39,361 nt of DNA from Candidatus Poribacteria bacterium (lineage in GTDB: Bacteria > Poribacteria > WGA-4E > WGA-3G), in the NCBI GenBank assembly GCA_022822085.1, contig JAJECK010000069.1, forward strand, positions 1 to 39,361, read 5' to 3'. The notes under the pieces are model-generated. The model did not search any database and had not been told where the DNA came from. It worked only from the letters and a program-made list of their open reading frames with translations. This document shows positions 7,302 through 21,997 of the stretch, piece by piece. Both the position numbers and the translations under genes were made by a program. Position 1 is the first letter of the stretch, and every line of letters begins with the position of its first letter.

Positions 7302-7464
7302 TAATACCATTTCTAAATGATGATGTAGCATTATTTCGTAGGTCGGGTAGAGCGAAGCGAAACCCGACACGTAGGGTTAGACAGAGTTTCAATGTCGGGT
7401 TTCGCTTTGCTCTACCCGACCTACAGTTTATTTATGACAATTTGTCATTTCGAAATGGTATAAC
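7302..7464 (+). repeat. MITE-like element, family B, copy 1
   Basis: This roughly 160-bp non-coding element is bounded by TAATACCATTTC at the left and the complement GAAATGGTATA at the right, with TA at both edges. Inside, a long inverted repeat starting GTAGGTCGGGTAGAGC is mirrored by GCTCTACCCGACCTAC, and GTCGGGTTTCGC is mirrored as well. The same edges and core occur at 18900-19048 and, as a left half, at 9893-9940. TA edges fit a Tc1/mariner/IS630-type origin. The copy lies between the second larA-like gene and dctQ. Confidence 0.75.
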
Positions 7465-19749: not shown

Positions 19750-21387
<1,638 letters not shown>

Positions 21388-21395
21388 TTATTTAC

Positions 21396-21686
21396 TTAGT
21401 TAACCTTGGCTAAGATATCATCTTCGCGCAAGATGAGAAATTCAATATTATCGTAAGTTACTTCTGTACCGCCATATTTTGCGAACAGGACTTTATCACC
21501 GACTTCAACATCAACAGCCTGTCGTTCGCCACTATCAAGTATACGACCTTTTCCGACTGCAACGACTTCACCTTCTTGTGGCTTTTCTTTAGCGGTGTCG
21601 GGGATGATAATCCCGCCACTGGTTTTCTGTTCATCCTCTTCGGAACGTTTAACGAGGATTCGATCACCAAGGGGTGTAAGTGCCAT
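21396..21686 (-). CDS. groES: 10-kDa co-chaperonin GroES
   Basis: The 96-residue co-chaperonin caps GroEL. It reads [47 protein letters not shown], including the mobile loop (about 17-30) that docks on GroEL, and ends in the usual [16 protein letters not shown] precedes the ATG at good distance (about 11 nt). It is the first gene of the groES-groEL pair. There is no CIRCE element upstream; the visible promoter is of sigma-54 type. Confidence 0.98.
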
Positions 21687-21728
21687 ATCTATTCATTCCT
21701 CCTAAATGAATTGTTAACGTAACTATTA

Positions 21729-21745
21729 GTTTTGTTTGACAAAAC
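21729..21745 (-). promoter_or_regulatory. Palindrome in the groES leader
   Basis: GTTTTGT-TTG-ACAAAAC is a perfect 7-bp inverted repeat with a 3-nt centre. It lies between the predicted start of transcription (about 21762) and the groES ribosome site. It could be an operator or an RNA hairpin in the leader. No regulator is identified. Confidence 0.5.
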
Positions 21746-21772
21746 TTGTTTAGATATTTCTGTACTTATTAT

Positions 21773-21789
21773 AGCAAGATACGTGCCAA
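21773..21789 (-). promoter_or_regulatory. Sigma-54 (RpoN) promoter upstream of groES
   Basis: On the minus strand TTGGCACGTATCTTGCT fits the sigma-54 consensus TGGCACG-N4-TTGCW with no mismatch. GG at -24 and GC at -12 are separated by exactly 10 nt. It lies about 90 nt before the groES ATG. A short palindrome TGCCATTTTGGCA at 21895-21907 is about 135 nt upstream of the expected start point, a typical distance for an enhancer-binding activator. The rest of the 21687-21997 spacer shows no gene. Confidence 0.7.
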
Positions 21790-21997
21790 TTTGCTGAATA
21801 TAGACGTACGCACAATTGGTGGGGTTTTAGGAATGTTATGTATTTTGAAATCGTGACAATTTGTCCATATACTTTAAAGGGTTAAGTGTATCTGTGCCAT
21901 TTTGGCATACTTGAATAATATGTAATCGAGTTTGAGAAAACTCTATTGTCCGACATATTTCTTTCAAATCTGGGTTAGAAACCCATCTAATCGAGAA

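Follow-up and report, generated by a model that had tools for sequence, protein, structure and literature searches.

A predicted sigma-54 promoter with conserved upstream palindromes at groESL in Poribacteria

Organization of the groESL Locus

The window analyzed here, a stretch of 39,361 nucleotides, lies in contig C20 of a 5.63-Mb poribacterial draft genome (G000). Its minus strand carries groES (Cpn10, 96 amino acids, positions 21396-21686; Pfam PF00166, E 4.5e-36) and, as the second gene of the operon, groEL (541 amino acids, 19750-21375; TIGR02348, 862 bits, above the cut-off). In the genome search this groES was the single GroES match, and the encoded protein shares 86-93% identity with proteins from Candidatus Poribacteria or uncultured Poribacteria (L094-L098), which identifies the organism as a poribacterium. 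A Shine-Dalgarno sequence, AGGAGG, was located by sequence at 21698-21703 on the same strand.

Upstream of groES the minus strand contains AAATTGGCACGTATCTTGCTATAATAAG. A sigma-54 -24/-12 promoter element, TGGCACGTATCTTGC, was placed at 21774-21788 of this strand; it agrees with TGGCAC-N5-TTGC at 10 of 10 positions and has the GG-N10-GC arrangement. An earlier interpretation made without database searches, referred to here as the sequence-only reading, had described TTGGCACGTATCTTGCT with a perfect GG-N10-GC upstream of groES. This was accurate, with TGGCACGTATCTTGC running from 21788 to 21774 on the minus strand. From the geometry of the element, transcription is predicted to start at 21762-21763 on the minus strand, about 12 nt past the GC.

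Between the predicted start site and the Shine-Dalgarno sequence, and not including the latter, the 5' untranslated region holds the inverted repeat AGTTTTGT-CAA-ACAAAACT (21728-21746, minus strand), which folds as a hairpin in the window (z -2.0). A leader palindrome of 17 nt had been noted earlier; the inverted repeat is present, but its length is 19 nt. Most relatives within the genus carry an inverted repeat of different letters at a similar position, e.g. CGGGTTT/AACCCG, and the repeat is perhaps an mRNA-stabilizing hairpin. An RNA thermometer was considered and rejected as unsupported, because the hairpin precedes AGGAGG and does not cover it, and because folding is unremarkable in most relatives.

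Sigma-54 Elements and rpoN in the Genome

Within the 39-kb window, the groES element was the only exact match to TGGCACN5TTGC, and the remaining matches had one or two mismatches. The number of degenerate matches, 42 with up to 2 mismatches, is a reason to consider chance, i.e. a loose GG-N10-GC in an AT-rich intergenic region with a random palindrome nearby. The groES element nevertheless has no mismatch in its 10 positions, and it is kept across families amid diverged flanks. Genome-wide, TGGCACN5TTGCW with at most one mismatch was matched 413 times in the forward and 118 times in the reversed pattern, which indicates a true excess of sigma-54 sites and further argues against chance. We regard a chance origin as practically negligible. 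The sequence-only reading had named absence of rpoN as evidence against it; the gene is present in the genome on contig C82 (PF04552, E 4.1e-57).

Many other perfect sigma-54 elements of this genome have no box of the kind described below and precede genes with signal-peptide-like starts (L002, L007, L008, L011, L018, L027, L029, and L030). Sigma-54 seems to be widely used in this organism.

Conservation of the Element and an Overlapping Extended -10 Sequence

The comparison was performed with genomes that are nearly all draft assemblies. A -24/-12 element at groES was found in 34 of the 37 genomes with a GroES match, comprising 30 groES upstream regions of the same order (that of the window included) and four further genomes. 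The motif is thus kept in relatives, a check proposed by the sequence-only reading. G036 and G037, as well as G038 and G039 (other families of the class), also keep the element, and the three genomes without it (G025, G028, and G030) make up one family, f3 (3/3). In each of the 30 regions of the order, 9-10 of the 10 -24/-12 positions match, compared with 0.10 such elements per 30 regions in Markov-1 shuffles, and the distance from element to start codon ranges from 54 to 137 nt. In the 30-region alignment the nine fixed -24/-12 columns hold 2.00 bits each, a value that the lining-up pattern itself fixes for those columns, and the spacer holds 0.95 bits and the flanks 0.44 and 0.26. Outside the phylum, 3 of 74 groES upstream regions had a match of 9-10 of 10, and CIRCE-like sequences were present in 46.

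An extended -10-like sequence, TGCTATAAT (21768-21776, minus strand), overlaps the -12 part of the element and is not conserved. It had been overlooked in the sequence-only reading, as had the palindrome at 21854-21866 described below. The real groES promoter could be this sigma-70 extended -10, with GG-N10-GC being incidental or with the two overlapping as a basal and an activated start. As a whole, we consider this unlikely. Although the sequence is the only exact TGNTATAAT in the window, and an essential groESL would require basal expression, no consensus -35 was found at 16-18 nt. G025 and G028 of family f3 do show a promoter of the TTGACA...TAGAAT type in place of the element, but in the order a TATAAT adjoining the site is confined to 2 of 30 genomes. 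The -24/-12 columns, by contrast, do not vary among the 30, and the same -24/-12 arrangement precedes dnaK and clpB. TATAAT was therefore rejected on conservation as the main groES promoter and is regarded as a trait of this species that may act as a second promoter overlapping the first. An overlapping dual promoter is unlikely, and an incidental GG-N10-GC very improbable. The sigma-54 element is preferred as the groES promoter.

Palindromes Upstream of the Sigma-54 Element

Two palindromes without strand assignment, both candidate activator boxes, lie upstream of the element. Palindrome 1, TGCCAAAATGGCA (21895-21907), is located 106 nt before the -24 position, and the gap is 105-107 nt in all genus members read. 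Palindrome 2, GGACAAATTGTCA (21854-21866), is located 65 nt before it (64-66 nt in all genus members read) and has one mismatch relative to the box type TGNCAWWWTGNCA. The sequence-only reading had listed a palindrome TGCCATTTTGGCA, which is present at 21895-21907. Its distance of "about 135" nt does not hold as the gap to -24 and fits only when counted from the -12 GC.

Palindromes of the TGNCAWWWTGNCA type were found two to four times in each of the 30 groES upstream regions, with a mean of 2.40 per region (at least 10 of 11 positions matching) compared with 0.03 in shuffles. Their gaps to -24 are nearly constant, with values of about 106 and 66 nt in the genus of the window, about 108, 67, and 42 nt in genus g2, and 93-96, 55-56, and 31 nt in family f4. 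The letters at the N positions of the box often co-vary (TGCCA...TGGCA, TGACA...TGTCA), and such paired changes are expected for a site bound by a dimer. Conserved palindromes at fixed spacing, together with the same pair of box and promoter at dnaK, clpB, lon, hsp20, and grpE, support the earlier idea that the chaperonin answers to an AAA+ activator.

Palindromes that are short and perfect could also be repressor operators, with the repressor standing in for HrcA, and family f3, which is without the groES sigma-54 element, still has other palindromes (TGTAACATATTGTTAC-like). However, boxes in two or three copies 31-108 nt upstream of -24 have the usual layout of enhancer sites, and palindrome and sigma-54 element co-occur at unrelated promoters. 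Transcription by sigma-54 requires an activator in any case. We consider repressor operators quite improbable and favor enhancer sites for an activator.

The perfect palindrome alone was rejected as a predictor of the regulon, with about 20 of 50 genomic sites lying in a short dispersed repeat. Perfect palindromes paired with a strong sigma-54 element are few in the genome of the window (groES and dnaK). The repeat itself, with about 20 copies genome-wide, has a copy at 7350-7450 of the window, which consists of an inverted repeat GTCGGGTTTCG...CGAAACCCGAC beside TGACAATTTGTCA and an extended -10-like TGGTATAAN, and which holds a perfect activator-box palindrome. A piece of it is also present ahead of the clpB promoter, which is without a box.

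Candidate Activators

The sequence-only reading had proposed a search for activator genes, and the genome of the window was found to encode ten intact sigma-54 activators and one weak match. An activator that reads the box must occur in every genome with the box, so candidates were filtered by their orthologs; the comparison covered five genomes almost in full and part of a sixth. Four candidates, named here by contig (C112, C104, C105, and C55), have an ortholog in all genomes with a full comparison of their activators. C104 and C105 have a histidine-kinase-like neighbor, and C112 and C55 are orphans. C55 has a GAFSGA loop and a weak receiver match, and its receiver domain seems to be without the usual phosphate-accepting aspartate.

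The remaining activators were rejected as readers of the box. Orthologs of C45, C58, C81, and C153 are not found in every box-bearing genome. C22 adjoins pilin-like and prepilin-peptidase-like genes and has no ortholog in G028, and C99 is without the GAFTGA loop. A palindrome-plus-promoter pair, which autoregulation would imply, was not found upstream of the gene of any candidate activator. The C45 protein (G000:C45:7997-9088; L010 / L085) is a PspF-like activator of 364 amino acids without a receiver domain. Its gene adjoins a divergent perfect sigma-54 element (G000:C45:7483), which resembles the phage-shock arrangement.

Box and Promoter Pairs at Other Protein Quality Control Genes

The extent of the regulon was determined with pattern searches and by inspection of selected stretches of genomes. 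The search pattern, a sigma-54 element with a box 25-85 nt upstream, gave 91 matches in 38 of 40 Poribacteria genomes, compared with two for the reversed pattern, and one match among 20 genomes of other phyla. Matches precede groESL, dnaK, clpB, lon, and hsp20 (small heat-shock protein), and grpE of G025 has the same arrangement of box and promoter. Targets were identified by domain (HSP70, Clp_N, Lon, HSP20, and GrpE). In the genome of the window, perfect 10/10 elements are present at groESL, dnaK (C81), and clpB (C140); promoters of the same type at lon, hsp20, and grpE were seen in relatives. No box was found in the 169 nt available upstream of clpB (C140). In family f1, 21 of 23 dnaK loci have an element scoring 9-10 of 10, and about 16 also have a box; about a third of the family's dnaK promoters are without a clear palindrome. 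The sequence-only reading had assigned sigma-54 control to groESL, which is supported, but its scope was too narrow, since the pattern describes a regulon rather than a single promoter.

Further genes stand behind promoters of this kind. In most other families, but not in that of the window, a stand-alone gene for a receiver domain (CheY-like, about 150 amino acids) lies directly before dnaK behind the same sigma-54 promoter (L353, L358-L361, L337, L237, L238, L240, L364, and L365). At about 650-1633 of another stretch (G006:C75:36000-39500; L227), a perfect -24/-12 element and two boxes precede a CBASS-type oligonucleotide cyclase (PADLOC, E 7e-120), and an AAA_21/DUF4435 ATPase comes next after the cyclase. 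A promoter resembling this one precedes a locus that encodes a TIR-like protein (L228). The activator of the chaperone genes may also control anti-phage genes.

HrcA, CIRCE, and RpoH

No CIRCE sequence was found in the window, even with 3 mismatches allowed, in agreement with the sequence-only reading. A search for hrcA (PF01628) found no match in 24 of 24 genomes of the window's family and in 3 of 3 of family f3, whereas the gene is present in the remaining 13 poribacterial genomes. Of the five hrcA regions examined, four contain a perfect CIRCE (L355, L357, L362, and L363; not L356). Apart from hrcA, CIRCE was seen at just one place, a second groES copy in G039, and not at the groES with the sigma-54 element. 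Family f4 has two dnaK genes, one adjoining hrcA and one behind a sigma-54 promoter. The dnaK of the window's family is nearer to the sigma-54-type copy (82% compared with 72% in G037, 80% compared with 74% in G034). Coexistence of both systems followed by loss of the HrcA branch is the simplest history.

RpoH was not found above the curated cut-off (best score 143 bits compared with 323) with a model that is proteobacterial, so that other heat-shock sigma factors are possible. Neither hrcA nor the sigma-54 element of groES persists in family f3 (L204, L208, and L209). The groES upstream regions of G025 and G028 carry TGTAACATATTGTTAC-like palindromes and a TTGACA-type promoter, which suggests a third control system at groES in this family.

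Discussion

Poribacterial groESL and other chaperones and proteases are very probably under the control of sigma-54 and a box-bound activator, as judged from sequence comparison. In the proposed mechanism, sigma-54 holoenzyme would transcribe groESL from the element at 21788-21774, where the polymerase would be kept in a closed complex. Bound at the palindromes at 21895-21907 and 21854-21866, a hexameric AAA+ activator would loop to the promoter and open the complex by ATP hydrolysis. The same pair of box and sigma-54 element would drive dnaK, clpB, lon, hsp20, and grpE in relatives, and because the pair is common to these genes, the output would be a coordinated protein-quality-control regulon. 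The sigma-54 system would act beside HrcA/CIRCE in most sampled families and replace it in the family of the window, where hrcA has been lost. Box binding, activation, and a protein-folding-stress signal are what we infer; the signal is a natural guess from the gene set. A more far-reaching proposal is a phylum-wide heat-shock-type regulon governed by one dedicated, folding-sensing sigma-54 activator, perhaps C55, that is checked by the induced chaperones, with HrcA/CIRCE fully displaced in the window's family. We regard this version as doubtful.

Strict dependence of an essential gene on an ATP-using activator under sigma-54 would be surprising. The defined box TGNCAWWWTGNCA, the spacing rule, and the four candidates make the activator of sigma-54 chaperone regulons directly testable. 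Some families of this little-studied phylum have kept hrcA and one has lost it, which also offers a natural series for the displacement of one stress circuit by another.

Chaperone induction is usually ascribed to sigma-32 or HrcA. HrcA/CIRCE has the same target genes and occurs in other poribacterial families, with CIRCE at hrcA. It differs in that a repressor acts on a vegetative promoter, and the window's family is without hrcA and the window without CIRCE. In Bradyrhizobium japonicum, groESL3 is an accessory copy tied to nitrogen fixation and is controlled by NifA. Its promoter is RpoN-dependent (PMC4842269). As in the window, groESL stands behind a -24/-12 promoter, but groESL3 is accessory in rhizobia, whereas the groESL of the window is the sole copy found in its genome, and its palindromes do not match the NifA box, TGT-N10-ACA.

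The closest counterpart described is the sigma-54 (SM4) regulon of Flavobacterium psychrophilum (Bacteroidota), where mapped starts include groESL, lon, dnaK, grpE-dnaJ, htpG, and clpB (PMC9723704). There, too, -24/-12 elements precede nearly the same gene set, and with this counterpart mapped at its transcription start sites, a sigma-54 chaperone regulon is already a known kind. The organism belongs to another phylum, and the passages of that report considered here name no activator or enhancer box, whereas the Poribacteria have a palindrome at fixed spacing. For Bacteroidota and Planctomycetota, a 2025 survey (PMC12316311) predicts a sigma-54 chaperone cluster, with a computed enrichment of GroEL, GroES, DnaK, GrpE, DnaJ, IbpA, and ATP-dependent proteases under sigma-54. 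Poribacteria are not named in the main text of that survey, and in the passages considered the cluster comes without an activator box or a comparison with HrcA. Sigma-54 chaperone wiring appears to have been described in few other groups of bacteria, and a literature search of partial coverage found no report of it in Poribacteria. To these systems the present analysis adds a further phylum, a box conserved in sequence and spacing, and a direct comparison with the loss of HrcA.
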